NCBI GenBank assembly: GCA_948567375.1
Contig: OX419759.1
Span: 101,303 to 165,302, forward strand
Length of the DNA: 64,000 bases
Reading direction: 5' to 3'
Origin: Lunularia cruciata
Taxonomy: Eukaryota > Streptophyta > Marchantiopsida > Lunulariales > Lunulariaceae
Shown here one piece after another: positions 1,217 through 54,669 of this stretch. Numbering within the stretch: the stretch's first letter is position 1; each line of letters starts with the position of its first letter. The notes under the pieces were generated by a model. It searched no databases and was not told where the DNA came from. It saw only the letters and a program-made list of their open reading frames with translations. The position numbers were made by a program, and so were the translations under genes.

Positions 1217-1530
1217 TAGAGAGTCTTGTTAGACTCTGGTGCGCAGCCCCTTATGTTAGGGAAGGCTGCAGTTGTCGGTCTGGAGTTACGGAAGACCGAT
1301 GTGGAGAGGTGTCCATGTTAGATCTAGACATCTCTAGGTGGTGGTTAGACATAGTACATCATACGTGGAGAGCTTGTTGTCCAGGTTCAGCCTGGTCATC
1401 CGACTGATAGCTCGGTGGTGAGAGCTCAGGCTATTGCGATGATAGCTGAGTCATATGATGTGCTAGTTGGGGGAGCAGTGTTATACCCTATGGGTTTCAA
1501 CATTGACTATTGGGAGGAGACAACCTCTTA
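1217..1530 (+). pseudogene. Family A retroviral-type aspartic protease
   Basis: The translated stretch VLLDSGAQPLML carries the D-S-G-A active-site signature of retropepsins in a hydrophobic context, as in Ty3/gypsy proteases that cut Gag-Pol. About 80 residues later comes a segment VLVGGAVLYPMGF that could correspond to the second half of the fold. It lies between gag and the methyltransferase, the usual place for PR in Ty3/gypsy. Part of a fossil element. Confidence 0.6.
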
Positions 1531-1939
1531 TAGACCTGGATGGCAGTCTGGTGAGGGGGGTATGTCGCCTACCAGTATGCTTCAGTAGTGGCAATCTTGG
1601 CTCACTACAGTCCGGGACCATGGCAGCATCAGTTTTAGCTTTCAGCGGTGCAGTTACTTGGCCTGGTGACTTGTTGGAGGGGAACGCCCATGCAGAGGAT
1701 ACTCCAATACCAAAGGAGATCACTCGGCTTTGGAGTACAAGTGGGATTGTTCCATCCACCTTGGATGTTCCATTGTGGAGTTTAGAGGAGGCATTGCAGC
1801 AGCATGCAGATCAGTTGGTGCAGCAGGCTTGGAGTGGAGCCTTCGTACCATCAGGGGATGAGTGTGAGGATGAGCCTCCAGAGGCGATTGCTTTGACACC
1901 TCTGGATACCACACTCATTGCTTGGCAGTATCCAGTAGA

Positions 1940-2960
1940 GGAGATATGCCTATTGGAGTTGTTTGGTGGGATCAGTACCGGACTAGCTGCGGTGTTACAG
2001 GTGGGTATTCAAGTACAGAGGTACTTGTATGTAGAGAGAGATGAGACTGCTAGGCAAGTCTCTCTACATCATGTACATCATGTGTCACACTTGGCCTATC
2101 GGTATCCAGAGTTATTACCAATGTCAGCAGTAAGAGGTTACCAGAAGGCCTTACCAGGAGACATTTCCTTACTGGGGGCGCATGACCTAGAGAGACATGG
2201 GCCTATTCACTTGGTGATTTCTGGATGGCCATGTCAGGGACATACACGTGCGGGCCGCGGTTTGGGTCTTCAGGATCCTCGTTTTGGTGTGTTTTGGGAG
2301 ATGTTACGGATACTATGACATCTCCAAGTTCATCTGTCTGTTTCTCCAGCTTACCTTTTGGAGAACGTTCCTTTGATAGGTGATTCTCGCACTAGAGTGG
2401 TGGCGAGTACACATCAGGTCCATTCTTAGATGGGACCTATTGTATTGTTAGATGCAGCCAGAGTGGGATCATGGGCTCATCGTCTTTGCCTTTGGTGGAC
2501 AAACCTTTTACCCAGAGAGGTTCTACAGCGTAGTTATGATGGGATTCAACGACTTGACCACATTCTTGTTGATGATATCTTGGATACTGGGCGTCCAAGA
2601 TATCATCAACAATCAAGACAGTGGTAGTGGCTGATAGGTCACCTATGGCAGTGGTGAACCTAGTTGGACAGCCTAGAGCTGCATTTCCCACACTCATGAG
2701 TTTCCCAGGCTCTCATGCTTTTTGAGAGGGAGGACCTGGACTTGTTTGGGACTCACAGTTACAGCAGTTGGTGGAGCCCAAAGCTGATGAGAGAGAGTGG
2801 GCGATGGGTTTTCGCACCGGTATTACCGCTGTTCTAGCAGTGTCAGAGGCATCCAGGCATCAGGTGTTAGGTCAGGCTATGGACCTGAACTGTTTGACCT
2901 GGATTGTGAGCCTTGGTTTGGCAAAGCAGCGTAGGATGCGCTTGATAGGCATCACTACTT
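1940..2960 (+). pseudogene. Cytosine-5 DNA methyltransferase domain inside family A pol
   Basis: Conserved C5-methyltransferase motifs occur in the right order. Motif I (SAM binding) is LELFGGISTGLAAVL near 1951-1995, followed by GIQVQRYLYVERD, which resembles the DNMT3/DRM stretch after motif I. Motif IV with the catalytic Pro-Cys is SGWPCQGH near 2218-2241. Motif VI is LLENVPL near 2355-2375. Motif VIII is WAHRLCLWWTNLLP near 2473-2514. Motif IX/X is a MGF-T-G-IT block near 2800 and LGQAMDLN near 2870-2890. The class is known to transfer methyl from SAM to cytosine C5 in DNA. By eye the overall shape is nearer DNMT3/DRM than DNMT1/CMT, but motif IV is not typical of either. It sits between protease and RT. 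Part of a fossil element; a second copy at 50170-51135 (-) has the same motifs. Confidence 0.85.
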
Positions 2961-3480
2961 GGACACTTGTGAGCCCTGTGCCTATCGAGACGATTCAAGT
3001 ACATGATGGGGGCAATGGACCAAGTGGACATGGTATTCTTGGGACACATTTAGTAGCTACTAGGGAGAGTGGTCTACTTGGAGTCCATCCAGGTGAGCGT
3101 GGGCTACTTGGATTACACCCTTGGTCCACATGGGATGCAGCTAGAGGACGTGTGGAGCTTGCAGTCAGAGTGGAGGGAGTTTTTCACACAGAGGTTGGGA
3201 CCTCTAGTGGTCGAGAGCATGACACTATTGCTCCCAAGGGCCCAGTGTAGTAGCCAATCAGTACGTCTTCCACTCCTACTACAGTTACAGAGGATACTTG
3301 GGAGCCAGATCTTGGACCCAAGCTTACTGGAGAGGAAAGACGGAGGGTTTGGAGGTTCTTGAGGAGTCACACGAGTTGTTTTGCCTTCAGTATGAAGGAT
3401 TTGGGTGCTCTGAAGGGACCTGGTATACGGATTGAGCTGACTAGCGACACACCTATTTCCCGACGTGCTTATTGATATAG
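2961..3480 (+). other. Family A methyltransferase-RT linker
   Basis: The coding-like linker includes short internal repeats of the type GLLGVHPGERGLLGLHP near 3070-3125, and ends just before the RT region. No known domain is recognised. The minus-strand A copy has the same linker with the same repeats near 49960-50060. Confidence 0.5.
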
Positions 3481-3484
3481 TAAT

Positions 3485-4760
3485 ATGGAGAGGACATTGA
3501 TTCAGAGCCGGAGTAGTGACCTTTTTGAGGCTGGTTTGGTGGAGATTTCACATGGAGAGTATGCATCAGCGACAGTGATGCCAGCCAAGAAGGATATGCA
3601 TGGAAACTATACAAATAGGCGGATGTGTGGAGATTACCATCCTATCAATCGACAGACCAGGGCTGATCGGTATGCCATGCCTACACCGGAGGAGATTTTT
3701 GATGCGATTGGGCATGCAAAGGTCTTCAATACTTTGGATCTTCGAGCAGATATCATCAGTTGCTGATTAGGGAGGAAGATAAGTCCAAGACAACATTTTG
3801 GGCTATTGATCCTAACGGCAAGGATGTGTTATATCAGTGGAGGTTCTTACCATTTGGGTTGAAGAACGCTCTTGCTGAGTTCCAGAGGGTCATGGATAGG
3901 ATCCTAGCTGGATTGGATTTTGCTCGGTGTTATATTGATGACATTTTGGTCTATAGCACTATTGTGGAGGAGCATGAGAGACAATTGTTGGAGGTGTTTG
4001 AGAGGTTGAGATCTCATGGACTCAAACTACATCCTGGGAAGTGTAGGTTCTTCTACGAGCAGGTTGAGTATTTGGGTCACACTATCTACCCCGGAGGACT
4101 TGGTGTTTAGCAGACCAAGGTGGAGGCTATTGCATGTGTTCCTCGGCCTACGGATGTGAGCAGAGTGTGAGCATTCCTTGGGTTGGCAAACTTCTATTGC
4201 CGCTATGTTAGAGGATTTAGTGCCATTGCCAAGGCCTTGACGAAGCTGACCAAGCTTACACAAGAGTGGTGTTGGGGAGATGAGCAGGAGAGAGCTTTTA
4301 TAGAGCTCAAGGAGAGGTTGACATCTGCTCCTATTTTGAGGAGACCGATCAAGGGACGACCATTTCAAGTTCACACTGATTGGAGTATGTTGGGGCTTGG
4401 AGCGGTGCTCACCCAGCATGATGATGAGGAGAAGGAGTTTGTGGTGGCCTATGCTAGTCGCTCCAACAATTCAGCGGGGGCAAAGTATAGTTCATATGAG
4501 GGAGAGTGCTTGGCAGCAGTTTGGGCAGTAGCACATTTTCGATGTTACCTATTTGGTAACCCCTTCACTCTCATCACTGATCATCAGCCGCTGAAGTGGT
4601 TGATGGAGTCTGACAAGCTTTCAGGGAAGCTTGCATGATGGGCTCTGATTTTACAGGAGTATGATTTCACGGTTGTTCATAGACCTGGAGTGGTGAACCG
4701 TGATGCAGATGAGTTGAGTAGAAACCCATGTCCCAGCCAGCAGGATCAGACCGGAGCACG
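3485..4760 (+). pseudogene. Family A reverse transcriptase and RNase H
   Basis: RT copies the element RNA into DNA and RNase H removes the RNA. Visible RT features are the palm catalytic motif YIDDILVYS near 3931-3957, the thumb-like segment with FYEQVEYLGHTIYP near 4050-4095, and the upstream fingers block with CGDYHPINRQT near 3628-3660. RNase H follows with FQVHTDWSMLGLGAVL near 4363-4410, YSSYEGECLAAVWAV near 4486-4530, and an ITDHQPLKWL block near 4573-4602. The type is Ty3/gypsy. Part of a fossil element. Confidence 0.85.
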
Positions 4761-5084: not shown

Positions 5085-6016
5085 CCACTTCCATCATAGA
5101 GACCACAGTTGGTCCGTCATGCTCATGAGGAGCTAGGACATTTTGGAGTAAAGCGTACATATAGCTTACTCCAGAGTCATATTGGTGGCGCGGTATGCAG
5201 ACCGAGGTACAGCAGTTTGTTGCTAGATGTATGGTTTGTGACCAAGTTAGAGCATCATTCAATGCTCCTACGCCACAGTTACATCCATTACCTATCATGG
5301 GATTGGGTTACCGTTGGAGTTTAGACTTTGCCGGACCTTTACCGTTGACTGTGAGACATCATCGGTATGTTTTGGTGAGGGTGGAGCACTTCTCCAAGTG
5401 GAATGAGTTGGTGGCACTTCCTGACAAGTCTAGTGAAGGGACGGCTTACTCGTTCCTAGATCGAGTTCTTAGTCATTTTGGTGCACCAGCTGAGGTTTTG
5501 ACTGATCAGGGTACAGAGTTCTTGGGGGAGTTTCAAGTCTTGTGTGACAAGGCTTTGATTGATCATCGTACGACATCCCGAGATCACCTTGAGGCAGATG
5601 GCTTAGGAGAGAGAGTGGTTCAGACGGTGAAGAGAGGATTGCGAAAGTATGGTTTGCAAAGAGGCCACTTGGGAGATTGGGATCTCCAGTTACCTTGGTT
5701 GGCCATGGGCTATCGGTTCAGCCGGCAAGCCTCCTTAGCATCCTTCTCTCCATACTTTCTACTCTATGGACGAGATCCAGATTTACCTGCAGCCATTCGT
5801 CAAGATGCTACTGTAGTTTTGGACTTGGATGACCCCAATGTATGGATGAGCGCATGTTCTCAACGGGCAGAGATCTTTCGGAGAGTGATGTCGATGGCTT
5901 TTGAGAACTTGGCGATTGCTCAGCATAGAGATACTTTATGCTATGCTACCATTCGAGGAGGAGGTTATAGACCCTCAATCCGTCAATTTCATCTAGGTAA
6001 CTATGTATATCTATAG
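5085..6016 (+). pseudogene. Family A DDE integrase
   Basis: Integrase joins element cDNA ends to host DNA. The N-terminal HHCC zinc domain is visible (HAHEELGHFG near 5120-5149, then CMVCDQV near 5227-5247). The catalytic core shows WSLDFAGPLP (first Asp, near 5315), LTDQGTEF (second Asp, near 5498-5521) and a segment with EADGL (Glu, near 5590). The C-terminal part includes the basic, GKGD-like region near 5980. It is followed directly by the PHD finger where chromoviruses carry a chromodomain. Part of a fossil element. Confidence 0.85.
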
Positions 6017-6059: not shown

Positions 6060-6360
6060 TCTAGAGAGTGCGCGAGATTTTGCCATCTGGAGTCCTTGTG
6101 TTAGAAGGACGTGATGGTGTTGTTTGGAAGGATCATGTGCCCAATTGTGCGCCATGCCACCTCCCAAACATTGATGGTACTATGGACCCAAGCTTGGCAC
6201 TTGTACGTGCAGGCTTGAGGTGTATGTTATGTGGCTCTTCTGGTGGAGTTGCTACTATGTTAGTGTGTGATAGCTATTCGAGAGGATGGCATATGGCATG
6301 TATGACTCCTCCCCTCATGGTGGTTCCTCAGGGATAGTGGTCATGTCCTAGATGTACTTG
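6060..6360 (+). pseudogene. PHD zinc finger at the C-terminus of family A pol
   Basis: The segment starting at about 6224 has the PHD pattern: CMLC, a spacer, a second cysteine pair around LVCD, then WHMAC with its His and Cys, the typical MTPPL--VPQG turn, and a final CPRC. In the other copies (40662-40796 and 46735-46874) the same finger reads with the canonical W before the last cysteine pair. PHD fingers typically bind the histone H3 tail, often by its lysine-4 methylation state. A preceding block with LEGRDGVVWKDHV and NCAPCHLPN may be a small zinc or SH3-like lead-in. Its place after integrase suggests a targeting role like the chromodomain in chromoviruses; that is inference. Confidence 0.8.
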
Positions 6361-6530: not shown

Positions 6531-7193
6531 TGTGGCACTTTAGAGTCTATGTATGACTTATGTGTGAGTTGTGCTTCTATAGTGTATGATGTTGATAGCA
6601 ATGCATGTTGTGTAGCGATGTATATACGCACGACAGCTGTCACGCCATTTGTAGTTCCGCATCTAGTTGCTCGGACACTGGAGTTCCAGTGATAGTAGTT
6701 AGAGTTATTCTAGTAGTTTCTCAAGGACTACTTTCCGACAGTCTGATTTGGTGTTCGGGGTACTGACTTCACGGTGGGGCCCACCGTCACTTTGCACCAT
6801 TTGCACCGTCGAGTGTGCCGTCAGCGGGACCGTTAGGGTTCCAGTGCTAGCTCAAGTCCAGAGGGGTATAGTTTCGAAGTGAGCACCAGAGAGCTCACTT
6901 CTCTGATGTTGAGCCTTCGAGTTCCTGGCTATGGTGGACAGAGGCCGGTGAGCGTCACCTAGATTCTCTATGCTTGAGTGGGTGTGGTTAGACTGTAATC
7001 AGTGCCCAGTTGTTGGCAGTTTATAGAGTGACAGATCAAGTACTGATCTGAGTTGAGTTGAGTTGAGAATGTTAAGCAATCTGATTATTGTGGCACTTTA
7101 GAGTCTATGTATGACTTATGTGTGAGTTGTGCTTCTATAGTGTATGATGTTGACAGCGATGTATGTTGTGTAGCGATGTATATACGCACGACA
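6531..7193 (+). repeat. Family A 3' terminal repeats, order B1-A2-B2
   Basis: Segment B (105 bp, TGTGGCACTT to GCACGACA) occurs at 6531-6635 and again, nearly identical, at 7089-7193. Between them lies segment A (6638-7087, TGTCACGCC to CTGATTA) with a 2 bp GC spacer on its left. The same B-A-B layout ends the copy at 39583-41636 and, inverted, the copy at 45904-54669. The outer end GACA is the insertion boundary in every case. Confidence 0.8.
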
Positions 7194-9974: not shown

Positions 9975-9979
9975 TCATC
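9975..9979. other. Target-site duplication TCATC of family B copy
   Basis: TCATC stands directly before the 5' LTR and again at 15622-15626 directly after the 3' LTR. This five-base duplication is typical for plant Ty3/gypsy integrase. Confidence 0.9.
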
Positions 9980-10401
9980 TGTAACAATATGGAGTTTAGT
10001 GACGAAGTTAGTCGGGCTTACGAAGTAGAGAATAAGACAAAATAGCCTAGAATATTCTAGAAGCATCTAAGAAGCTTCTTAGGAAGCTTCCCAACTAGTT
10101 AACTTGCGCCCTAAGCAGGTAGCTTCTAGAAGGAAGCTTCTAGAAGCTTCTAACTAGCTTAGCTTGCACGCCAAGTAGGCGGCTTCTAGAAGGAAGCTTC
10201 TTGAGAAGCTTCCTAGTTAACTTGGCTTGCACTCCAAGAAAGCGGCTCAAGGAAACTTCTTGAGAAGCTTCAAGGGTCTTGTATGCTACCTATAAATACC
10301 AAGGCTGAAGCTCATGCTAGGATTCGGAGTTTTCCCTCATTCAAGTGTCCCAATGTGAGCTTCCATTCTCCTATTTCTCTCCTCGGTTTTGGTCTTTTAC
10401 A
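9980..10401 (+). repeat. Family B 5' LTR
   Basis: Starts TGTAACAATATGG, ends GGTCTTTTACA. A TATA box (TATAAATA, 10291-10298) lies downstream of a dense cluster of GAA/TTC modules (10056-10270). The primer-binding site follows at once. Confidence 0.95.
10056..10270 (+). promoter_or_regulatory. Cluster of heat-shock-element-like modules in B LTR
   Basis: Many alternating GAA and TTC modules with 2 bp spacing lie upstream of the TATA box. The best array is GAAGCTTCTAGAAGCTTC at 10133-10150, a perfect palindrome of four contiguous modules (nGAAnnTTCnnGAAnnTTCn). The same 18-mer is present at 15353-15370, 45253-45270 and 59236-59253. Heat-shock factors are known to bind at least three such modules. 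Heat-inducible transcription is an inference from the motif. Confidence 0.6.
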
Positions 10402-10402
10402 T

Positions 10403-10417
10403 TGGTATCAGAGCAGG
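10403..10417 (+). other. Primer-binding site, initiator tRNA-Met type
   Basis: TGGTATCAGAGCAGG starts one base after the 5' LTR. This is the usual plant LTR-retrotransposon site complementary to the 3' end of initiator tRNA-Met. The minus-strand B copy has it at 58967-58981. Confidence 0.9.
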
Positions 10418-10672
10418 AATGGAATGGATGGAATTTATGGACCACCAAATCCACTTCCGCCAAACCATTGGGAATTTCATGTCCAGATATTACCAAAGCA
10501 TCGTTTCACACAATTCATCACCTCACGCTTTGGGCAGGATTTTCTACATATGATCACCGTGTCAGAGGAACCCTTGATACTTCCAGTTGTAACTTATGGA
10601 GAACGGTGGACTTGTTGTATCTACGTGTTAATCAACTAGATAAATTGCAAGTAGTGGAATAGAGTAGTAGCG

Positions 10673-11590: not shown

Positions 11591-11598
11591 CTGGGAGC

Positions 11599-15621: not shown

Positions 15622-15626
15622 TCATC

Positions 15627-38980: not shown

Positions 38981-39582
38981 TTCTTGGTTCTATTGCCAAG
39001 ACCTATCTAGAAGGCAAGATAATGTTCCACATACAATTCTATATTAGATAGAAGAAGGCTATGAGAGTTCACTTGGAAAGAACATTAGGGGAGGAGAGAG
39101 TTGAACTTATGCTAGAAAACCAAGATCATTTTTGTACCGAGTAGTTCATTATGATGTCTTTGAGGTGATTTTGTACATCTTGTATACATGAGAGGATTTG
39201 GAGAGATTGTGTGAAGTGGATTGCAAGTTTTGGAGATTATAGTGATTTTGTGCAAAACCTCAAGTTTGAGATCTAGTCTTGAAATTTTCTTAAAAGATAG
39301 CTTGAATTATAAGGTAGGACACTTAAAATTATTGTAAGGAATGCTACACGCATTGAGCTAGAATTTTGAAAGATAATCAGGTAAATTGTTGCAATAAATT
39401 GTATGTTCTTTGGAATTTTATACAAAATTTTGCCATTTCTTCATTTTTCATTGGATTTTTTGGGACTTTGCAAGAAAATTTAGTGCATAGGTTTCTACCT
39501 TTTGGGTCAAGAATTAGAGAGATTATTCTTGCACAAGAAGTTATGAGTTTTTAAAGTAAGGGGTGGTTTTCAAACCAAATCT
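38981..39582. other. Unassigned segment between D LTR and family A
   Basis: AT-rich. A short plus-strand reading (SIAKTYLEGKIMFHIQFYIR) at the left end looks coding-like, but I cannot place it. It may be the interior of family D. Confidence 0.3.
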
Positions 39583-39669
39583 GGAGTAAAGCGTACATAT
39601 AGCTTACTCCAGAGTCATTATTGGTGGCGCGGTATGCAGACTGGGGTACAATAGTTTGTTGCCAGATGT

Positions 39670-40440
39670 ATGGTTTGTGACCGAGTTAGAGCATCATTCA
39701 ATGCTCCTATGCCACAGTTACATCCATTACCTATCATGGGATTGGGTTACCGTTGGAGTTTGGACTTCGCCGGAAGTTTACCCCTGACTGTGAGACATCA
39801 TCGGTACGTTTTGGTGATGGTGGAGCACTTCTCCAAGTGGATTGAGTTGGTGGCACTTCCTGACAAGTCTAGTGAAGGGACAGCTTACTTGTTCCTGGAT
39901 CGAGTTCTTAGTCATTTTGGTGCACCAACTGAGGTTTTGACTGATCAGGGTACAGAGTTCTTGGGGGAGTTTCAGGTCTTGTGTGACAAGGCTTTGATTG
40001 ATCATCGTACAACATCTCGAGATCACCCTGAGGCAGATGGCTTAGCAAAGAGAGTGGTTCAGACGGTGAAGAGAGGATTGCAAAAGTATGGTTTGCAGAG
40101 AGGCCACTTGGGAGATTGGGATCTCCAGTTACCTTGGTTGGCCATGGGCTATCGGTTCAGCCGGCAAGCCTCCTTAGCATCCTTCTCTCCATACTTTCTA
40201 CTCTATGGATGAGATCTAGATTTACATGCAACCATTCGTCAAGATGCTACTGTAGTTTTGGACTTGGATGACCCCAATGTATGGATAAGCGCATGTTCTT
40301 AGCGGGCAGAGATCTTTCGGAGAGTGATGCCGATGGCTTTTGAGAACTTGGCGATTGCTCAACATAGAGATACTTTATGCTATGCTACCATTCGAGGAGG
40401 AGGTTATAGACCCTCAATCCGTCGATTTCATCCAGGTGAC
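39670..40440 (+). pseudogene. Family A integrase core (fragment X)
   Basis: The DDE core reads as in copy 1, with both aspartates (DFAG; TDQGTEF) and the glutamate (PEADGL) visible, followed by the C-terminal region with RRFHPGDYVYLQQ near 40420-40455. Its function would be strand transfer of cDNA ends. Part of a fossil element. Confidence 0.8.
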
Positions 40441-40517
40441 TATGTATATCTACAACAGACAACACCGACGACACTTGATGTTTCTACAGGCCGCACTATC
40501 TTGAGAGTGGTGAGACT

Positions 40518-40799
40518 TTGCCATCTGGAGTCCTTTTGTTAGAAGGACGTGATGGTGTTGTTTGGAAGGATCATGTGCGCAATTGTGCGCCATGTCACCT
40601 CCCAAACATTGATGGTACTATGGACCCAAGCTTGGCACTTGTACGTGCAGGCTTGAGGTGTATGTTATGTGGCTCTTCTGGTGGAGCTACTACTATGTTA
40701 GTGTGTTATAGCTGTTCGAGAGGATGGCATATGGCATGTATGACTCCTCCCCTCACGGCGGTTCCTCAGGGACAGTGGTTATGTCCTAGATGTACTTGA
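40518..40799 (+). pseudogene. PHD finger (fragment X)
   Basis: This copy shows the complete spacing of a PHD finger: CMLCGSSGG, a hydrophobic LVC pair, GWHMACMTPPL, VPQGQWLCPRC. It is one of three copies in the window, which supports it being a genuine family A module and not a chance capture in one insertion. Confidence 0.8.
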
Positions 40800-40968
40800 C
40801 CTATAGCTAGTTCATTCTTTATATGGTATAGATTGCAGACAGGCAACTAACAATGGGGCTCCATAGCACCCGGCCTCTTGATCTTTGCCCATTAGAGGGT
40901 ATACCATATACTTAGAGTAGGTGGCTATCTGGGGTTAGAGGGACCTAACCGCCAGCTAGGAGGGCGAT

Positions 40969-41636
40969 TGTGGCACTTTAGAGTCTATGTATGACTTATG
41001 TGTGTGTTGTGCTTCTATAGTGTATGATGTTGACAGCGATGTATGTTGTGTAGCAATGTATATACGCACGACAGCTATCACGCCATTTGTAGTTCCGCAT
41101 CTAGCTGCTTGGACACTGGAGTTCCAATGATAGTAGTTAGAGTTATTCTAGTAGTTTCTCAGGAACTACTTTCCGATAGTCTGATTTGGTGTTTGGGGTA
41201 TTGACTTCATGGTGGGGCCTACCATCACTTTGCACCGTTCGCACCGTCGAGTGTGCCGTTAGCGGGACCGTTAGGGTTCCAGTGCTAGCTCGAGTCCAGG
41301 GGGGTATAGTTTCAAAGTGAGCTCTAGAGAGCTCACTTTTCTGATGTTGAGCCTTCGAGTTCCTGGCTATGGTGGACAGAGGCCGGCGAGCATCACCTGG
41401 ATTCTATATGCTTGAGTGGGTGTGGCTTGACTGTAATCAATGCCCAGTTGTTGGCAGTTTATAAAGTGATAGATCAAGTTCTGATCTGAGTTGAGTTGAG
41501 TTGAGTTGAAAGTGTTAAGCAATCTGAATATTGTGGCACTTTAGAGTCTATGTATGACTTATGTGTGTGTTGTGCTTCTATAGTGTATGATGTTGACAGC
41601 GATGTGTGTTGTGTAGCGATGTATATACGCACAACA
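40969..41636 (+). repeat. Family A 3' terminal repeats B1-A2-B2 (fragment X)
   Basis: B1 40969-41073 and B2 41532-41636 are each 105 bp; A2 lies between them with a 2 bp GC spacer, as in copy 1. Confidence 0.8.
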
Positions 41637-43916
41637 CCACCCACACTACTCGAGCTAGAACTTGTAGGTACAGCCGATCTACTCCTGGCCACCAAGCTTG
41701 AAGTGATGGAGACATAGTGTGGAGACCAATACTGTCTCCATAACTCAATCTCCTACAAATGAGCTCTCCTGAACTCATGGTAATCATCCATCGGCGGACC
41801 CTCCAGATGCTGAAACAACCCCTTCCATGCCATGAAGGGTGTGAACAAAGTTGGGTTCCGCATCTGCTGTAGATCACACCAACTATCAAACTCCTGGATG
41901 AGGTCATCCAACTCAATGGTACCCACTATACCAGAGTAACGCCTAGGGCCTTTGGAGGCCCCATAAATCTCGTCCATGTCCCACAAAAACGGTGCGGACA
42001 CACCAAGTGCATTCGCAACTGAATCAGCTCCTATGTCGAACTCCAACTCAGAGTCAATCTCCTCCCTCACTGGGACCTCAGATACAGGCTGATACCGAGC
42101 ACCACTCCGAGTAAACCCATTGCATACTGCAGGGCTAACTCCTCTAGAATCTCCAAAGAACTCCATCGTGACAAAGTAACCACAACAGCAAACCCGAACC
42201 ACCAACTGCAACCGCAAGTCGCAACCGCAAGTGCCCCACCAAGTGCCAACACCACCACATGCCAACACGAACTAAACACCACCCACTAATGTAACTCTAA
42301 CCAAGATAACTACACTAGGGGAAGGGCAACCTATAACCTACCATCATAACACGCACTCTCATGGTCTGCAAGTCATCACTTCCTGCCTCACCAGAGTGAA
42401 ACAAAGGTAGTATGACTGGTCATCACTCCAGCCTCACCACTGAGAGCACACCAGAGCACCAACGCTCAAAAGTCAAGGCACCTCACACAAACGTGGTGCA
42501 CAAACAGGAAGCAAAGAATGGAGGGGATCCAATCACAAGAAATCTAAACAAAAACCTTCCATCTCATAACACAACACAGGACTGACTCTGCCACCATTTG
42601 GCATTTGACATAAGAGTTGTTCGTATCTAAGTCCTAAGCTACCAGGATCACCAAGAATGGGATCAAATTGCCTCTCCTAGCCAAAGCTACATGTGTATAG
42701 ATAACAATGGCGTAGTCACTAGGACAACAAGTGAGGGTGGACCAGTTGGCTAGGGCACCACTCTAGGAACAAGAGATCTAGGGGTCAAACCCTGTTGCAT
42801 ATAATCTAGCAAGAAAGGCAGATTTTGCCAACCAAAGACCAAGATCTACTCTAAACTAGCTAGTCTCACGCCAGCAAGTTGACTTGCTGGCCCTTCTAGC
42901 CCTATGCCTCAAAGCCTCTAAAGGCCCAAATGAGGCCTTTCTTGTTGCCACTTCGAACCTCCTCTAAAATTGGCGAAACTTCTCCAAATCTGTGAAAGTC
43001 CTCCAAACTAGCGAAAGTCTCCAAATCTGGCCAAACAGCGAAAACTCCTCCAAATCTGACGTAAACCTTAAAGATGGCTGTCTGCCAAATCCCCCGCTAA
43101 CTTTACACTCGAGCCAAATTGACAAAATGGGTTTTTCCAAATCACAATTTCATAGAAAGAGCTTCCCAACTCCACCTTCAATTTGACTTTCTGAGCCCAA
43201 CTCGCAACAAATTGGTCATGCCTTCACCTCCTGAGCTCAAAATCACAACATTGCTCAAAAATTGCTCCTTCTTTGCTCGAAATTTGGCCAACACTTCCGC
43301 ACACCGTCCGCCTAACTGTCAAATCTACATCACTTGAACGAGCTTCTGCACACTAGGGATACATAGAACTTGAATCGAGCTACCACTATCCACCGAGCTT
43401 GGAGATACCACCAACACTCAACGTTCCTGCACCCGATTTCCACCTGACTTCACTTCTCTGATGTAATCAGATTGCTTACCACTCTCAACTCAACTCAACT
43501 CAACTCAGATCAGTACTTGATTTGTCACTCTATAAACTGCCAACAACTGGGCATGATTACAATCAAGCCACACCCACTTAAGCATAGAGAATCCAGGTGA
43601 TGCTCGCCGGCCTTTGTCCACCATAGCCAGGAACTCGAAGGCTCAACATCAAAGAAGTGAGCTCTCTGGAGCTCACTTCGAAACTATACCCCCTGGACTT
43701 GAGCTAGCACTGGAACCCTAACGGTCCCGCTGACGGCACACTCGACGGTGCGAACGGTGCAAAGTGATGGTGGGCCCCACCGTGAAGTCAGTAGCCCGAA
43801 CACCAAATCAGACTGTCGGAAAGTAGTCCCTGAGAAACTACTAGAATAACTCTAACTACTCTCACTAGAACTTGAGTGTCCAAGCAACTAGATGCAGAAC
43901 TACAAATGGTGTGATA
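41637..43916 (-). mobile_element. Family A fragment Y: 5' repeat, leader and gag start
   Basis: On the minus strand, from 43916 down: segment A1 (43916-43462), a noncoding leader (43461-42280), and gag (42268-41640; IYGASKGPRRYSGIVGTIEL and PTLFTPFMAWKGLFQHLEG). It matches 54669-52360. The A1 end at 43916 is the same as in the full copy at 54669, and beyond it lies family C U3. Confidence 0.8.
42735..42800 (+). other. tRNA-like / SINE-head-like sequence in family A leader
   Basis: On the plus strand (antisense to the element), GTTGGCTAGGGCACC resembles a Pol III A box. About 35 bases later, GGGGTCAAACCC resembles a B box. The wording is like tRNA-derived SINE heads of plants. The same stretch is at 53428-53493. 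Confidence 0.45.
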
Positions 43917-45488: not shown

Positions 45489-45903
45489 GTTTATGCATTG
45501 TGGAGGTGAGAAAGAGGTTCCCAGGTGGCATCATGAAGGGGATACCCTTTCCAAAGGACCTTGTACTCAGTATGTTGGCGACGGCCTCGTTGAATGTGGC
45601 GATGCGCAAGGATACGATCAACTTTGTACTCCTCATGATCATTGATAGGGATAGGAAGAGGGGGAGGTTGGACTCAAGAGGAAAAAGAAGAGGGGTTAGG
45701 AACAAAGGGTTTCAACTTGGAAACATGAAAGATAGGATGGATACGCATGTGACAAGGCAAGGCAAGACGATAAGCAACAGGAGAGACAATTTGGGTGATA
45801 TCAAAGGGTCCTATCCAATTAGGGGCAAGTTTACAAACTTGGGTATCAAGTGGGACAGGGAGGTTACTAGAGGATAGCATGACTTTATCACTGACTTCAA
45901 AGG
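45489..45903 (-). pseudogene. Family B integrase C-terminus and chromodomain (older copy)
   Basis: The minus strand reads VCKLAPNWIGPFDITQIV (near 45840-45790), then the chromodomain (EYKVDRILAH, EYKVLWKGYP, ATWEPLSHL) near 45645-45489. It is separated from the rest of pol by the nested family A element. Confidence 0.8.
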
Positions 45904-46561
45904 TGTCGTGCGTATATACATCGCTACACAACATACATCGCTGTCAACATCATACACTATAGAAACACAACTCACACATAAGTCATACATAGACTCTAAA
46001 GTGCCACAATAATCAGATTGCTTAACATTTTCAACTCAACTCAACTCAGATCAGTACTTGATCTATCACTCTATAGACTGCCAACAACTGGGTAATCAGC
46101 TGGGCACTGATTACAGTCAAGCCACACCCACTTAAGCATAGAGAATCCAAGTGACGCTTGCCGGCCTCTGTCCACCATAGCCAAGAACTCGAAGGCTCAA
46201 CATCAGAGAAGTGAGCTCTCTGGAGCTCACTTCAAAACTTTACCCCCCTGGACTCGAGCTAGCACTGGAACCCTAATGGTCCCGCTAACGGCACACTCGA
46301 CGGTGCAAACGGTGCAAAGTGACGGTGGGCCCCACCATGAAGTCAGAACCCCGAACACCAAATCAGACTGTTGGAAAGTAGTCCCTGAGAAACAACTAGA
46401 ATAACTCTAACTACTATCACTGGAACTCCAGTGTCCAAGTTACTAGATGCACAACTACAAATGGCGTGACAACTGTCGTGCGTATATACATCGCTGTCAA
46501 CATCATACACTATAGAAACACAACTCACACATAAGTCATACATAGACTCTAAAGTGCCACA
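45904..46561 (-). repeat. Family A 3' terminal repeats B1-A2-B2 (longest copy)
   Basis: Inverted: B2 45904-46008, A2 46010-46471, 2 bp spacer, B1 46474-46561. The polypurine tract complement TCGCCCCCCTAGC follows at 46562. Confidence 0.8.
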
Positions 46562-46730: not shown

Positions 46731-47030
46731 TCAAGTACATCTAGGACATAACCACTGTCCCTGAGGAACCACCGTGAGGGGAGGAGTCATACATGCCATA
46801 TGCCATCCTCTCAAACAGCTATCACACACTAACATAATAGCAGCTCTACCAGAAGAGCCACATAACATACACCTCAAGCCTGCACGTACAAGTGCCAAGC
46901 TTGGGTCCATAGTACCATCAATGTTTAGGAGGTGGCATGGCGCACAATTGTGCACATGATCCTTCCAAACAACACCATCACGTCCTTCTAACACAAGGAC
47001 TCCAGATGGCAAAATCTTGCGCACTCTCAT
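46731..47030 (-). pseudogene. PHD finger (longest family A copy)
   Basis: One 99-codon frame holds the lead-in LEGRDGVVWKDHV and the complete PHD finger (CMLCGSSGR, LVCDSC, GWHMACMTPPL, VPQGQWLCPRC), followed by a stop. The Cys4-His-Cys3 spacing is standard. It terminates the polyprotein. Confidence 0.85.
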
Positions 47031-47105
47031 GATAGTGCGGCCTATAGAAACATCAAGTGTCGTTGGTGCTATCTGCTGTAGATATACATAGTCGCCTGGA
47101 TGAAG

Positions 47106-48404
47106 TCAACAGATCAAGGGTCTATAACCTCCTCCTCGAATGGTAGCATAGCGTAAAGTATCTCTATGCTGAGCAATCGCCAAGTTCTCAAAGGCCATCG
47201 GCATCACTCTCCGAAAGATCTCTGCCCGTTGAGAACATGCGCTCATCCACACATTGGGGTCATCCAAGTCCAAAACTACAGTAGCATCTCGACGAATGGT
47301 TGTAGGTAAATCTGGATCTTGTCCATAGAGTAGAAAGTATGGAGAGAAGGATGCTAAGGAGGCTTGCCGGCTGAACTGATAGCCCATGGCCAACCAAGGT
47401 AACTGGAGATCCCAATCTCCCAAGTGGCCTCTCTGCAAACCATACTTTTGCAATCCTCTCTTCACCGTCTGAACCACTCTCTCTGCTAAGCCATCTGCCT
47501 CAGGGTGATCTCGGGATGTAGTACGATGATCAATCAAAGCCTTGTCACACAAGACCTGAAACTCTCCCAAGAACTCTGTACCTTGATCAGTCAAAACCTC
47601 AGCTGGTGCACCAAAATGACTAAGAACTCGATCCAAGAACGAGTTAGTTGTCCCTTCACTAGACTTGTCAGGAAGTGCCACCAACTCAATCCACTTGGAG
47701 AAGTGCTCCACCATCACCAAAACATACCGATGATGTCTCACAGTCAGCGGTAAAGGTCCGACAAAGTCCAAACTCCAATGGTAACCCAATCCCATGATAG
47801 GTAATGGATGTAACTGTGGCGTAGGAGCATTGAATGATGCTCTAACTCGGTCACAAACCATACATCTGGCAACAAACTGCTGTACCTCGGTCTGCATACC
47901 GCGCCACCAATAATGACTCTGGAGTAAGCTATATGTACACTTTACTCCAAAATGTCCTAGCTCCTCATGAGCATGACGGACCAACTGTGGTCTCTGTGAT
48001 GGAAGTGGTACTACTCGCACTCTACCATCCTCCCATACACGCAAAAGGTGTCTACCCTCCAATCTGAACCGTCTAGCTTGCTGAAGAACACAGTCTCTCT
48101 CCTTGGCCCCAACTGTGCCACCCACAACACTAGTGCAAAGATAATCCATCACTAAGACATCATCATGAATGTCTCGCTGAACTGTACCAATATCTTCACT
48201 CTCTGGATCTGTGACCTCAATAACTCCTCTTGTATGCGCTGAGAGAGATACCACCAAAGTCTCTGCAAATATACACAGAAAGGCCAATGCATGCCAACCT
48301 GGCACCATCTCCTCATTTGTCTCACCATGCCAACGTGCTCCGGTCTGATCCTGCTGGCTGGGACATGGGTTTCTACTCAACCCATCTGCATCACGGTTCA
48401 CCAC
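47106..48404 (-). pseudogene. Family A RNase H end and integrase (longest copy)
   Basis: This 432-codon frame starts at the end of RNase H (NRDADGLSRNPC). The integrase zinc domain follows (HAHEELGHFGVK about 47980; CMVCDRV about 47865-47845), then the core with SLDFVGPLP, LTDQGTEF and HPEADGLAERV, and the C-terminal region. It is the clearest family A integrase in the window and confirms a DDE enzyme, not a tyrosine recombinase. Confidence 0.9.
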
Positions 48405-48499
48405 TCCAGGTTTGTGAATAACCGTGAAATCATACTCCTGTAAAATCAGAGCCCATCATGCAAGCTTCCCTGAAAGCTTGTCGGACTCCATCAACCACT

Positions 48500-49735
48500 T
48501 CAGCGGTTGATGATCAGTGATGAGAGTGAAGGGGTTACCAATAGGTAACATAAAAAATGTGCTACTGCCCAAACTGCTGCCAAGCACTCTCCCTCATATG
48601 AACTATACTTTGCCTCCGCTGAATTGTTGGAGCGACTAGCATAGGCCACCACAAACTCCTTCTCCTCATCATCATGCTGGGTGAGCACCGCTCCAAGCCC
48701 CAACATACTCCAATCAGTGTGAACTTGAAATGGTCGTCCCTTGATCGGTCTCCTCAAAATAGGAGCAGATGTCAACCTCTCCTTGAGCTCTACAAAAGCT
48801 CTCTCCTGCTCATCTCCCCAACACCACTCCTATGTAAGCTTGGTCAACTTCGTCAAGGCCTTGGTAATGGCACTAAATCCTCTAACATAGCGGCGATAGA
48901 AGTTTGCCAACCCAAGGAATGCTCACACTCTGCTCACATCCGTAGGCCGAGGAATACGTGCAATAGCCTCCACCTTGGTCTGTTGGACACCAAGTCCTCC
49001 GGGGTAGATAGTGTGACCCAAATACTCAACCTGCTCGTGGAAGAACCTACACTTCCCAGGATGTAGTTTGAGTCCATGAGATCTCAACCTCTCAAACACC
49101 TCCAACAACTGTCTCTCATGCTCCTCCACAGTAGTGCTATAGACCAAAATGTCATCAATATAACACCGAGCAAAATCCAATCTAGCTAGGATCCTATCCA
49201 TGACCCTCTGGAACTCAGCAGGAGCGTTCTTCATCCCAAATGGTAAGAACCTCCACTGATATAACACATCCTTACCGTGAGGATCAATAGCCCAAAATGT
49301 TGTCTTGGACTTATCTTCCTCCCTGATCGGCAACTCATGATATCCTGCTCGAAGATCCAAAGTACTGAAGACCTTTGCATGCCCAATTGCATCAAAAATC
49401 TCCTCCGGTGTAGGCATGGCATACCGATCAGTCCTGGTTTGTCAGTTGATAGGACGGTAATATCCACACATCCGCCTATCTGTATAGTTGCCATGCATAT
49501 CCTTCTTGGCTGGCATCACTGTCGCTGATGCATACTCTCCATGTGAAATCTCTACCAAACCAGCCTCAAAAAGGTCACTACTCCGGCTCTGAATCAATGT
49601 CCTCTCCATATCACTATATCGATAAGGACGTCGGAAAATAGGTGTGTCGCTAGTCAGCTCAATCCGTATACTAGGTCCCTTCAGAGCACCCAAATCCTTC
49701 ATACTGAAGGCAAAACAACTCGTGTGACTCCTCAA
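48500..49735 (-). pseudogene. Family A reverse transcriptase and RNase H (longest copy)
   Basis: RT blocks include MPTPEEIFDAIGHAKVFSTL near 49417-49358, WRFLPFGMKNAPAEFQRVMD near 49260, YIDDILVYSTT near 49160-49130 and FHEQVEYLGHTIYPG near 49050. RNase H reads FQVHTDWSMLGLG and YSSYEGECLAAVWAV near 48740-48570. Typical Ty3/gypsy. Confidence 0.9.
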
Positions 49736-50169
49736 GAACCTCCAAACCCTCCACCCTAAACCCTCTCCAGTAAGCTTGGGTCAAAGATCTGGCTCCCAAG
49801 TATCCTCTGTAACTGTAGTAGGAGTGGAAGACATACTGACTGGCTGCTACACTGGGCCCTTGGGAGCAATAGTGTCATGCTCCCGACCACTAGAGGTCCC
49901 AACCTCTGTGTGAGAAACTCCCTCCACTCTGGCTGCAAGCTCCACACATCCTTTGGCTGCATCCCATGTGGACCAAGGGTGTAATCCAAGTAGCCCACGC
50001 TCATATGGATGGACTCCAAGTACACCACTCTCCCTAGTAGCTACTGGATGTGTCCCAAGAATACCATGTCCACTCGGTCCATCGCCCCCAGCATGTGCCT
50101 GAATCGTCTCGATAGGCACAGGGCTCACAAGTGTCCAAGTGGTGATGCCTATCAAGCGCATCCTACGCT

Positions 50170-51135
50170 GCTCTGCCAAGCCAAGGCTCACAATCCAGGT
50201 CAAAGAGTTCAAGTCCATAGCCTGACCTAGCACCTGACGCTTGGATGCCTCTGACACTGCTGGAACAGCAGTAATACCGGTGCAAAAACCCATCGCCCGC
50301 TCTCTCTCATCAGCATTGGGCTCCACCAACTGCTGTAACTGTGAGTCCCAAACAAGTCTATGTCCTCCCTCTTGAAAAGCATGAGAGCCTGGGAAACTCA
50401 TGAGTGTGGGAAATGCAGCTCTAGGCTGTCCAACTAGGTTCACCACTGCCATAGGTGACCTATCAGCCACTACCACTGTCTGAGACTGACGTCCAACATC
50501 CAAGATATCATCAACAAGAATGTGGTCTAGTCGCTGAATCCCATCATAACTACGTTGTAGAACCTCTTTGGGTAAAAGGTTCGTCCACCAAAGATGAAGA
50601 CGATGAGCCCATGATCCCATTCTGGCTGCATCTAACAATACAGCAGGTCCCATCCAAGAATGGACCTGATGTGTACTCGCCACCACTCTAGTGCAAGAAT
50701 CACCCATCAAAGGAACATTCTCCAAAAGGTAAGCTGGAGAAACATACTAATGAACCTGGAGATGTCATAATATCCGTAACATCTCCCGAAACACACCAGA
50801 ACAAGGATCCTGAAGACCCAAACCGCGGCCCGCACGTATATGTCCCTGACATGGCCATCCAGAAATCACCAAGTGAACAGGCCCATGTCTCTCTAGGTCA
50901 TGCGCCCTCAGTAAGGAAATGTCTCCTAGTAAGGCCTTCTGGTAACCTCTGACTGCTGACATCGGTAATAACTCCGGATACTGATAGGCCAAGTGTGCCA
51001 CATGATGTAGAGAGACTCGCCTAGCAATCTCATCTCTCTCTACATACAAGTACCTCTGTACTCGGATACCCGCCTGTAACACCATAGCTAGTCCGGTGCA
51101 GATCCCACCAAACAACTCCAATAGACATATCCCCT
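50170..51135 (-). pseudogene. Cytosine-5 DNA methyltransferase domain (longest family A copy)
   Basis: A second copy has the same motif order as 1940-2960: motif I LLELFGGICTGLAMVL (about 51127-51080), GIRVQRYLYVERDE, motif IV ISGWPCQGH (about 50870), motif VI LENVPLMGD (about 50725-50700), motif VIII WAHRLHLWWTNLLP (about 50610-50570), and motif IX/X DERERAMGFCTGIT (about 50310-50270) and LGQAMDLNSLTWI (about 50235-50195). The 120-residue span between VIII and IX is where a target-recognition region lies in this class. Two copies with the same extent show that the domain is a stable part of family A. Part of a fossil element. Confidence 0.85.
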
Positions 51136-51369
51136 CCATCACCACCTACCACACCTGCACTGGGACGTCTAGGAACCATGGATGTCGTCTGCAATGCCTC
51201 AGATAGCGTGAAAGACTGGGGAAGTCTGACCTGTCTCCGAACCTCTCCTCTTTGTGGGTCCAATTCCACTGATGCTCCTCTAGGCTCTGGAGCACGTACT
51301 GCACTCCTAGTCACTAATGCAGATGCATCCACCTGTGCTGCTCCGCACATGAAGTCCAAAGCATCTCTA

Positions 51370-52926
51370 TCACCAGCATATGGTGGAAGCCTCAGCACCC
51401 GAATCTGATCTCCTTTGAGCAATAGCCATACTACCCAATCTTTGCTCCAACTGCTCAATCCGAGTAGCCATAGTTGTGTCAGAAGTAAGGGCATGTACTG
51501 CACCTCTACTAGGTGTAGATCCTCTACTACCACCTTGTCCTCCATGAACTGGAGCTCCTCTACTACCTGCCATAGCAGCCCTACCACCCTGTAACTTAGG
51601 GTGTAGGTCAAAACACCGGTCACTAGTGTGACCAAATCTGTGGCAATGCTCACACTGCCTCTGTGCTGGCTGTGATGCACCAGAGGTATCAGGTCCGCTG
51701 CCCTGAGTACACACTCTCCTATGGTAAGGTCCACCACAAGTCCAACAAGCAACACCACCACTCACTGGCTGCTGCTGACCCGAAAATGAGGGTAAGGGTC
51801 TAACTCCACTAGGCCCCCCACTCGCTCCATAGGATCTAGGCTGTCCACCCTATCCTCAAAAAGCAACAGGGCGTGGTGCACTCTACTGCACTCTAGAAGC
51901 AGTCACAGCCGTGGATGAGGTCTCCCTACCAAATCCAGATGTCACCACTCTCTCCTCCACCATGTTGAGCTCAATACGCTCAGCCAAACCAAAGACTACT
52001 GCCAAAGTGGGCAAAGTAGCCTGCAATAACGTAGCATCACGAACTCTATGTCGCAACTCCCTGTCCAATATCCCATACCAAAACTGGACTGCCTGGGCCT
52101 CAGTAACTCCCTGAGTGAAACTGATCAGCCGCCTCATGCGAGTGTATGCCTCACGTAGGCTCTCTCCAGCCTTCCGCTAGAACGCCTGCAAGCTCCTCAG
52201 CTTGTCAATCCGCACTCCTTGGTAGTTCTGCCTCAAACATAGAAAGAACTCAACCATGGGGTTAAACCCCGGTACCACACCACCTCCTGCAGTGGTATCT
52301 CCACTCATAGTAGCACTATCTCCAACTAGTGCACCTCCACTAGCTCCACTAACACTACTCGAGCTAGAACTCGTGGGTACAGCCGATCTACTCCTGGCCA
52401 CCGAGCCTGAAGTGATGGAGACATAGTGTGGAGACCAATATTGTCTCCATAACTCAATCTCCTCCAAATGAGCTCTCTTGAACTCATGGTAGTCATCCAT
52501 TGGCGGACCCTCCAGATGTTGAAACAACTCCTTCCATGCCATGAAGGGTGTGAACAAAGTCGGGTTCCGCATCTGCTGCAGATCACACCAACTATCGAAC
52601 TCCTGGATGAAGTCATCCAACTCAATGGTACCCACTGTACCAGAGTAACGCCTAGGGCCTTTGGAGGCCCCATAAATCTCGTCTATGTCCCACAACAACG
52701 GTGCGGACACACCAAGTGCACTCTCAACTAAATCAGCTCCTGTGTCGAACTCCAACTCAGAGTCAATCTCCTCCCTCATTGGGACCTGAGATACAGGCTG
52801 ATACCGAGCACCACTCCGAGTAAACCCACTACGTACTGTAGGGCTAACTCCTTTGGAATCTCCAAAGAACTCCGTCGTGACCATGTAACTGCAACAACAA
52901 ACCCAAACCACCAACTGCAACCGCAA
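51370..52926 (-). pseudogene. Family A gag with two zinc knuckles
   Basis: The N-terminal 250 residues hold a gag core (FIQEFDSWCDLQQMRNP, FTPFMAWKELFQHLEGPP), a Ser-rich linker, then an LTR-gag-like helical part (SFTQGVTEAQAVQFWYGIL; RELRHRVRD near 52060). Two knuckles follow: CWTCGGPYHRRVC (51747-51709) and CEHCHRFGHTSDRC (51654-51613), then a Gly/Arg-rich tail and a short coiled coil with RIEQLEQRLGSMAIAQ. The role is particle assembly and RNA binding. Confidence 0.75.
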
Positions 52927-54217
52927 GTCGCAACCGCAAGTACCCCACCAAGTGCCAACACCAACTAAACACCACCCACTAATGTAACTCTAACCGAGAT
53001 AACTACACTAGGGGAAGGGCAACCTGTAACCTGCCATCATAACACGCACTCTCATGGTCTACAGGTCATCACTTCCTGCCTCACCGGAGAGAAACACAAG
53101 TAGTCTGACTAGTCATCACTCCAGCCTCACCATCGAGAGCACACCAAAGCACCAACGCTCAAAGGTCAGGGCACCTCACACAAACGTGGTGCACAAACAG
53201 GAAGCAGAGAATGGAGGGGATCCAATCACAAGAAATCTAAACAAAAACCCTCCATCTCATAACACAACACGGGACTGACTCTGCCACCATTTGGCATTTG
53301 ACATAAGAGTAGTTCGTATCTAAGTCCTAAGCTACCAGGATCACCAAGAATGGGATCAAACTGCCTCTCCTTGCCAAAGCTACAGGTGTATAGATAACAG
53401 TGGCGCAGTCACTAGGACAACAAGTGAGGGTGGACCAGTTGGCTAGGGCACCAGTCTAGGAACAAGAGATCTAGGGGTCAAACCCTATTGTGCACAATCT
53501 AGCAGGAAAGGCAGATTTTGCCAACCAATGACCAAGATCTACTCTAAACTAGCTAGCCTCACGCCAGCAAGCTGGCTTGCTGGCCCTTCGTAGCCTCTCA
53601 TAGCACACAGCCCTATGCCTTGAAGCCTCAAAATGCCGAAATTCAGCCAAATGAGGCCTTTCTTGTTGCCACTTTGAACCTCCTCCAAAATTGGCAAAAC
53701 TTCTCCAAATCTGTGAAAGTCCTCCAAACTAGCGAAACTTCTCCAAATCTGGCCAAACAGCGAAACTCCTCCAATTCTGGCCCAAAATCTGACGTAAATC
53801 TGATGTAAAATCTGACGTAAACCCTAAAGATGGATGTCCGCCAAATCCCCCGCTAACTTTCCACTAGAGCCAAATTGACAAAACGGGTTTTTCCAAATCA
53901 CAATTTCATGAGAAGAGCTTTCCAACTCCACCTTCAATTTGATTTTTTGAGCCCAACTTGCAGAAAATTGGTCTTGCCTTCACCTCCTGAGCTCAAAATG
54001 ACAACACTGCTCAAAAATTGCTCCTTCTTTGCTCAAAATTTGGCCAGCGCTTCCGCACACCATCCGCCTAACTGCCAAATCTGCATCAGCTGAACGAGCT
54101 TCTACACACTAGAGAAACACAAAACTTGAATCGAGCTACCACGATCCACCAAGCTTGGAGATACCACCAACACTCAACGTTCCTGTACCCGATTTCCCCC
54201 TAACTTCACTTCTCTGA
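52927..54217 (-). other. Family A noncoding leader (longest copy)
   Basis: About 1.3 kb lies between segment A1 and gag with no long frame. Just after A1 the text ATCAGAGAAG resembles the core of a tRNA-Met primer site. It contains the SINE-head-like stretch at 53428-53493 on the other strand. The same leader is in fragment Y (42280-43461). Confidence 0.6.
53428..53493 (+). other. tRNA-like / SINE-head-like sequence in family A leader (longest copy)
   Basis: A-box-like AGTTGGCTAGGGCA (53437-53450) and B-box-like GGGGTCAAACCCT (53474-53486) have spacing as in tRNA genes. No full cloverleaf is apparent. It lies antisense to the element. Confidence 0.45.
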
Positions 54218-54669
54218 TGTAATCAGATTGCTTAACACATTCAACTCAACTCAACTTAGATCAGTACTTGATCTGTCACTCTATAAACTGCCAACAACTG
54301 GGCACTGATTACAGTCAAGCCACACCCACTCAAGCATAGAGAATCCAGGTGACGCTCGCCGGCCTCTGTCCACCATAGCCAGGAACTCGAAGGCTCAACA
54401 TCAGAGAAGTGAGCTCTCTGGAGCTCACTTCAAAACTATACCCCCTTGGACTTGAGCTAGCACTGGAACCATAACGGTCCCGCTGACGGCACACTCAACG
54501 GTGCGAATGGTGCAAAGTGACGGTGGGCCCCACCGTGAAGTCAGTACCCTGAACACCAAATCAGATTGTCGGAAAGTAGTCCCTAAGAAACTACTAGAAT
54601 AACTCTAACTACTATCACTGGAACTCTAGTGTCCGAGCAACTAGATGCGGAACTACAAATGGCATGACA
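54218..54669 (-). repeat. Family A segment A1 (5' terminal repeat)
   Basis: On the minus strand TGTCATGCC to CTGATTACA, 452 bp. It lacks segment B on either side, unlike the 3' end. The outer end is the insertion point in family B. Confidence 0.8.

Follow-up and report, generated by a model that had tools for sequence, protein, structure and literature searches.

A split-repeat Ty3/gypsy retrotransposon family with a DNMT3-like methyltransferase and a PHD finger in the liverwort Lunularia cruciata

RESULTS

Retrotransposon copies in the window

The window, i.e., the whole stretch of 64,000 nucleotides of Lunularia cruciata contig OX419759.1 that was analyzed, contains three copies (A, B, and C) and one fragment (D) of a retrotransposon family that encodes a cytosine-5 (C5) DNA methyltransferase (MTase) in copies A and B. 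The features identified, including protease (PR), reverse transcriptase (RT), RNase H, and integrase, are the following.

Copy A
1220..1585 (+), pieces 1220-1318 and 1355-1585: aspartic protease (LLDSGAQPLMLGK); own PR profile, E 2.7e-11 and 1.7e-8
1944..2960 (+): C5 MTase motifs I-X; motif reading and own profile; stops at 2316, 2427, and 2723, frame change near 2576-2624
3248..3253 (+): stop TAG TAG, then CCA, between MTase and RT
3476..4635 (+): RT (3476-4107, two frames) and RNase H (4171-4635); domain profiles
5165..6013 (+): integrase core (rve); Pfam PF00665, 1e-10, and own profile
6065..6334 (+): PHD finger, partly decayed; own profile 2.3e-14, Pfam 0.00022, below cut-off
6531..7193 (+): 3' end, with B1 6531-6635, GC, A2 6638-7088, and B2 7089-7193

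Copy B
54670-54673 (5' side) and 45900..45903 (3' side) (-): target-site duplication CCTT, 4 bp; E1 empty site
54219..54669 (-): 5' end, repeat A1 (TGTC...); repeat comparison
51373..52989 (-): gag with CCHC knuckles, broken; identity to Marchantia P0170 gag
50150..51145 (-): C5 MTase motifs I-X, single frame with two stops; motifs, DNMT3A match, homologues, and own profile
49841..49849 (-): stop TAG, then CAGCCA, between MTase and RT; frame reading
48459..49780 (-): RT (49780-48926) and RNase H (48829-48459); own profiles
47109..48455 (-): integrase, H2C2 and rve; Pfam 2e-17 and 1e-13, and own profile
46734..47105 (-): PHD finger; Pfam PF00628, 7.9e-11, above cut-off
45904..46561 (-): 3' end, with B1 46561-46474, A2 46471-46009, and B2 46008-45904 (...GACA)

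Copy C
39547-40209 (+): integrase; domain profiles; no MTase in copy C (39547..41636)
40479-40796 (+): PHD finger; Pfam 4.5e-11
40969-41636 (+): 3' end, B1-A2-B2

Fragment D
41637..43916 (-): 5' repeat A1 (43916-43463) and the region behind it; matches the 5' part of B

The original prediction described a Ty3/gypsy family in which an MTase is placed between the protease and the RT. Both parts of this claim hold for copy A, where the protease is followed by the MTase, RT, RNase H, and an rve integrase; the protease region of copy A (801-1937) is missing from copy B. No recombinase family, and hence no DIRS tyrosine recombinase, was detected in the pieces scanned with Pfam, and an rve integrase was present instead. 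No MTase was found in copy C (38292-41636), in which segment 38981-39581 precedes the integrase and has no counterpart in any other copy.

Copies A, B, and C all carry a PHD finger after the integrase, a feature absent from the original prediction. The best solved chains for the copy C piece, as judged by sequence, were histone methyltransferase 2D, CHD4, and an MLL3 homologue. In the C-terminal pieces of these three copies, Pfam detected PHD-type fingers and no chromodomain.

Elsewhere in the window, a tandem pair (156 nt, 79% identical) is located at 24399-24710.

Motifs and decay of the methyltransferase

The MTase extends over 1944-2960 (+) in copy A and over 51145-50150 (-) in copy B. As had been claimed, motifs I, IV, VI, VIII, and IX/X of C5 MTases occur in the right order in both copies; the motifs are LLELFGGI (I), ISGWPCQGH (IV, with the predicted Pro-Cys), LLENVP (VI), AHR (VIII), and MGF and LGQAMDLN (IX/X). 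Copy A is divided into the open pieces 1467-2315, 2319-2426, 2430-2624, 2576-2722 (frame change), and 2726-3247, and copy B into 50768-51145 and 49850-50746. Both retain the Pro-Cys of motif IV with its catalytic Cys, the Glu and Asn of motif VI, and the His of motif VIII. The last Arg of motif VIII is gone in both, being Cys in A and His in B. Both MTase copies of the window are dead.

We determined residue counts in an alignment of 201 rows, counting at each position the rows that have a residue there. The catalytic Cys was conserved in 103/109 relatives, the motif VI Glu and Asn in 119/129 and 124/129, and the motif VIII His and last Arg in 141/151 and 129/149, respectively.

Identity of the methyltransferase

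The original prediction was to be judged by a Pfam PF00145 search of each segment. Matches were obtained for the first piece of A (E 0.0017) and the N half of B (E 0.028), both below the curated cut-off, and none for the other four of the six MTase pieces searched, so that this test, taken literally, would have failed the claim. TIGR00675 similarly matched two of four pieces below its cut-off (E 5.8e-5 and 0.0032). Pfam and NCBIfam searches of single pieces are thus too weak to decide. Against the Protein Data Bank (PDB), the N half of B matched DNMT3A (E 7.5e-5), and no MTase was matched by the C half. In a protein collection, the 1e-3 threshold was passed by 49 of 53 candidates when the N half was the query (best E 3.7e-47) and by 140 of 3733 when it was the C half (best E 1.9e-93). 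Fourteen of the 19 relatives rescanned were above the Pfam MTase cut-off (7/9 in one scan and 7/10 in a second).

We subsequently used an MTase profile of 45 relatives that includes no row from the window, the relatives themselves having been found with window pieces. This profile matched seven open pieces of A and B (E-values from 2.2e-10 to 3.3e-114); the rest of the 64-kb window gave no match at E 1e-3. As a control, the six profiles used gave 0 matches in 12,460 shuffled segments. Among solved structures, the 45-relative profile matched DNMT3A with E 8.8e-19. The match covers motifs I-VIII and is joined by a weak second segment at IX-X. Other chains included 4onj, which we take to be a DRM (2.4e-9), DRM2 (1.1e-7), HhaI (1.4e-4), and tRNA-type MTases (0.0014-0.0035). 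The corresponding bit scores were 70.7 for DNMT3A, 34-40 for the DRM chains, and 24 for HhaI. Taken together, the DNMT3A match and homologues with E-values down to 1.9e-93 confirm the claim of a C5 MTase.

High scores were also obtained with phage enzymes. Three phage MTases, of 389 phage records with a match, reached 52.4-62.8 bits when scored with a profile from that alignment, and phrog_116 scored 84.9 bits against relative P0059. DNMT3 enzymes are thus one candidate donor among others.

The surroundings of motif I had been described as DNMT3/DRM-like. In plant DRM enzymes, motifs VI-X are placed ahead of motifs I-V. This rearranged order was not found, since the motifs run from I to X in both copies, and the MTase is therefore DNMT3-like and not DRM-like; only the first half of that description stands.

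Element ends and split repeats

The window also contains E1 (9977-15622, +), a Ty3-like element without MTase. Its plain 426-bp LTRs differ at 4/426 sites, and a long frame at 12037-14295 encodes RT, RNase H, and H2C2. E1 is a recent insertion. E2 is an older copy of E1 that is split by element B into 59409-54668 and 45905-45000 (-).

Element B is a nested insertion in E2, and the homologous site is unoccupied in E1 (14717 onward), which provides the exact ends of element B: the flank CCTT, TGTC...GACA, and again the flank CCTT. Because it interrupts E2, element B is younger than E2. The 3' end, B1-A2-B2, recurs with different flanks in A, B, and C, and the 5' end, consisting of A only, is found in B and D. 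The family thus lacks the matching LTRs at both ends that are typical of Ty3/gypsy elements and has DIRS-type split direct repeats (A-ORFs-B-A-B), of which both ends are seen in B, the 3' end in A and C, and the 5' end in D. These split repeats are combined with an rve integrase, TG...CA ends, and a 4-bp target duplication.

At the B1-A2 junction, copy A has the sequence GACA-GC-TGTC, from which B and C each deviate by a single base; it resembles two ends of the element fused with an additional dinucleotide between them. A purine-rich run lies four bases ahead of B1 (GGGGGG; GGAGGG in C). We infer from this sequence that the integrated form would correspond to a two-LTR circle opened at the B1-A2 junction.

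Within element B, repeat A1 diverges from A2 at 32/450 sites; the LTRs of the older E2 differ at 19/425. The divergence of A1 and A2 exceeds what nesting predicts for repeats that were identical at insertion, and, although few sites are concerned, the two may not have been identical then.

Segment 23-702 was considered as an LTR of copy A and discarded, as it is common only to 38292-38980 and is not part of element B. Both segments begin with TGTAA[CT]ACCC, are 86% identical, and lie on the 5' sides of copies A and C.

Relatives in liverworts, Sphagnum, and metagenomes

The named matches among those listed were from Marchantia polymorpha, Marchantia paleacea, Riccia sorocarpa, Calypogeia fissa, and Sphagnum. 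No Klebsormidium name occurred among the matches listed, most of which were metagenome proteins, and the absence of other plants is for the same reason not evidence. The wider relative search scored only the 8000 candidates with the most shared words. Scans of viral contigs with the queries P0059, A2, P0189, P0224, and P0229 gave no relatives, nor did one scan of genome contigs with query A2.

In a tree of 69 rows, copy B was placed inside a 20-row clade with Marchantia, Sphagnum, and Calypogeia (support 100/100); the program issued a long-branch warning for this tree, and its root rests on one long bacterial branch. The row most similar to the copy B MTase was Calypogeia P0173, with 69% identity over 330 columns. 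The similarity extends to other domains. M. polymorpha P0170 is a 1278-amino-acid gene model joining gag, PR, and MTase, to which the gag of copy B is 62, 72, and 47% identical in three pieces and the protease of copy A 66 and 60% in two. In relative P0189, Pfam detected CCHC, PR, and MTase in one protein. For the RT of copy B, identity is 77% with Marchantia P0185 and 59% with P0229. Close relatives in liverworts and Sphagnum indicate that the MTase element is not an oddity of one genome. Some relatives are labelled cytosine-5 methyltransferases in UniRef, and the M. polymorpha predicted proteins Mp_4g09160, Mp_8g17980, and Mp_6g11220 carry the NCBI label hypothetical.

A single RT clade of MTase carriers was also considered and is not supported, since the RT of the MTase-free E1 (38%, 123 bits) outscores five MTase carriers.

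Domain order in long relatives

The profiles used to scan 74 long relatives each represented a single domain and had been made from members of this group itself. In 71 of the 74, the MTase is accompanied by one or more further retroelement domains, and 3 show the MTase alone. The protease precedes the MTase in 42/74, the MTase precedes the RT with no protease seen in 7/74, and MTase and integrase alone, with or without a PHD finger, were found in 6/74. Among the 42 protease-first relatives, 36 have no RT after the MTase, some of these being partial models or cut contigs, and in 6 a single gene model continues past the MTase to include RT, RNase H, or integrase. A PHD finger was detected in 15/74. 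Pfam, applied to 12 of the 74, contradicted no domain call and missed some, such as the MTase of P0202.

In the remaining arrangement, the MTase is located behind RNase H (16/74, 12 of them with the integrase next). This order is seen in some metagenomic relatives, for example in P0211, P0217, P0219, and P0224, often with integrase and PHD finger following. The 13 such rows in the tree, 3 of the 16 being too short, all fall in one 18-row clade (99/96), which indicates that the MTase moved once or that this group captured its MTase separately.

The stop between methyltransferase and RT

The MTase frame of copy B ends with GTG-TAG-CAG-CCA, and the same frame continues into the RT. UAG-CARYYA is the leaky-stop context of tobamoviruses. 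By arithmetic, one stop in 512 would show this context by chance; it was seen in copy B only, and the window contains three TAGCARYYA sites, both strands counted and the copy B site included. The 36 relatives that end after PR and MTase fit a stop at this position, and the 6 run-on relatives either have no stop or are gene models drawn across one.

DISCUSSION

Comparison with known elements

MTases of this kind have been reported in dinoflagellate LINE and DIRS elements and in a Klebsormidium Gypsy element, as far as the available text of PMC5890265 shows; PMC12344493, in the part available, repeats streptophytes and dinoflagellates as hosts. In yeast, CG activity was described for the DIRS enzymes and none for the LINE and KnitGypsy enzymes, a result called inconclusive in the same text of PMC5890265. 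By its description there, KnitGypsy-Dnmt3 of Klebsormidium nitens (de Mendoza 2018, PMC5890265) is, like the family in the window, a Gypsy element with a DNMT3-type, unrearranged MTase, and according to the Fig. 4 legend its repeats are arranged as in DIRS, again as in the window. It differs in that its DNMT is described as part of the Pol ORF (PMC5890265), whereas the MTase of the window's relatives closes a gag-PR protein. The term PHD occurs 0 times in the main text of PMC5890265. SymbioDIRS-Dnmt3 of dinoflagellates also combines a DNMT3 domain and split repeats in a retroelement but has, in the text available, a tyrosine recombinase and another host lineage, in contrast to the rve integrase found here (PMC5890265).

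Predicted proteins of M. polymorpha, Sphagnum, and Calypogeia share the PR-MTase order, with frames longer than those of the window. Chromoviruses, i.e., Ty3/gypsy elements with a chromodomain, also place a chromatin reader behind the integrase; the window family differs from them by a PHD finger instead of a chromodomain, an added MTase, and split repeats where chromoviruses have plain LTRs. Gypsy polyproteins with chromodomain and Tudor readers are described in PMC12477816, in the portion available, and neither a C5 MTase nor a PHD finger is mentioned for any Gypsy element in the available portions of PMC9516144, PMC9985172, PMC6317226, and PMC12477816.

A literature search that reached few subscription journals yielded no description of MTase-bearing Gypsy elements in bryophytes and no paper describing Mp_4g09160, Mp_8g17980, Mp_6g11220, or the Sphagnum and Calypogeia proteins. 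In the literature found, so far as its text was available, the only green-plant precedent is the alga Klebsormidium. The window family represents the type of element known from KnitGypsy-Dnmt3, and its MTase has close relatives in liverworts and Sphagnum.

How the element may work

The original prediction held that the enzyme may hide the element's cDNA, methylate host DNA, or limit the element itself. What the window shows, namely the domains and the order in which they occur, the motifs, repeats, target duplication, and stop context, is accommodated by a proposal that we regard as having even chances of being correct. The first frame would end at the leaky UAG, giving mostly Gag-PR-MTase, and a minority of products would read through into RT-RNase H-integrase-PHD. 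The MTase would thereby be made at Gag-like levels and be packaged into particles, where it would methylate the element's own double-stranded cDNA prior to integration, and the new copy would arrive marked as silent DNA. The PHD finger borne by the integrase would tether the complex to a chosen chromatin state, as thought for the chromodomains of chromoviruses. We infer packaging, read-through, cDNA as the substrate, and tethering from several observations. Gag, PR, and MTase are joined in one protein in P0170 and P0189; 36/74 long relatives, some of them partial, have PR and MTase without RT; in copy B, the RT is in frame after the stop; most relatives retain the catalytic residues; a PHD finger is present in copies A, B, and C; and insertion is of the integrase type (rve, TG...CA ends, 4-bp duplication). 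DIRS-borne DNMT3 domains, moreover, methylate CG de novo in yeast, according to the available text of PMC5890265. Against the proposal are the dead copies of the window, the missing selection signal in the A-B comparison of the MTase, C-to-T differences that are matched in the MTase-free pair E1/E2, the 6/42 run-on relatives, the leaky context in one copy, and the lack of yeast activity of the Klebsormidium Gypsy DNMT, called inconclusive in that text (PMC5890265).

A footprint of self-methylation was sought in C-to-T differences. Between A and B, these affect 49/418 CG, 59/705 CHG, and 68/3148 CHH sites. The footprint was rejected because the MTase-free pair E1/E2 shows the same (CG 74/439, CHG 52/454, CHH 117/3254). 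Most simply, the pattern reflects host methylation of both pairs.

The MTase could instead act on host chromatin, near the landing site or broadly, and alter the host methylome or limit transposition. DNMT3 enzymes normally act on chromatin, the PHD finger suggests nucleosome contact, and at least 12/74 relatives have the MTase directly ahead of the integrase; such self-restraint was also raised in the available text of PMC5890265. In 42/74, however, the MTase comes directly after the protease and is remote from integrase and PHD finger, an arrangement more in keeping with a function within the particle. We regard action on host chromatin as rather unlikely.

The ratio dN/dS of the MTase between A and B was 0.62, not below the off-frame controls (0.44 and 0.52), and there is thus no sign of selection since the A-B split. 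Together with the missing catalytic Cys in 6/109 relatives, this would be expected of a catalytically idle passenger or binding module. We consider such an idle domain improbable, given that catalytic residues are mostly kept in an alignment that includes relatives of 32-45% identity and both positions of the domain.

Particles of this type package mainly RNA as their nucleic acid, and the MTase is weakly similar to tRNA-type C5 MTases (E 0.0014 to 0.0035). It is nevertheless very improbable that it acts on RNA in the manner of Dnmt2, be it the genomic RNA of the element or the primer tRNA, as DNMT3A matches far better (8.8e-19). Chance motif matches without a real MTase, suggested by Pfam scores below cut-off on pieces, are already refuted by homologues at 3.7e-47 and 1.9e-93, by the 14/19 relatives above the Pfam cut-off, and by the DNMT3A match at 8.8e-19.

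Implications

Methylation of the element's own cDNA from a leaky-stop Gag-PR-MTase, our preferred reading, can be extended to a lineage across green plants. Such a lineage would carry a writer (the DNMT3-like MTase, made at Gag level via the leaky stop) and a reader (the PHD finger), would methylate its own cDNA, and would use its rve integrase to open a two-LTR circle at GACA-GC-TGTC. We advance this wider picture as a speculation that is probably not correct in full. If true, the circle would account for the A ... B-A-B arrangement and for the absence of GC from the termini, and a retroviral integrase would be joined to a DIRS-like life cycle. The combination of split repeats and an rve integrase also bears on how such elements copy and insert.

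DNA methylation is a main plant defence against such elements, and an element that keeps a DNMT3-like enzyme is therefore paradoxical: the enzyme usually used to silence such elements is part of one. With gag-PR-MTase gene models present in the genetic model M. polymorpha, the old question of why an element would methylate DNA becomes directly testable.
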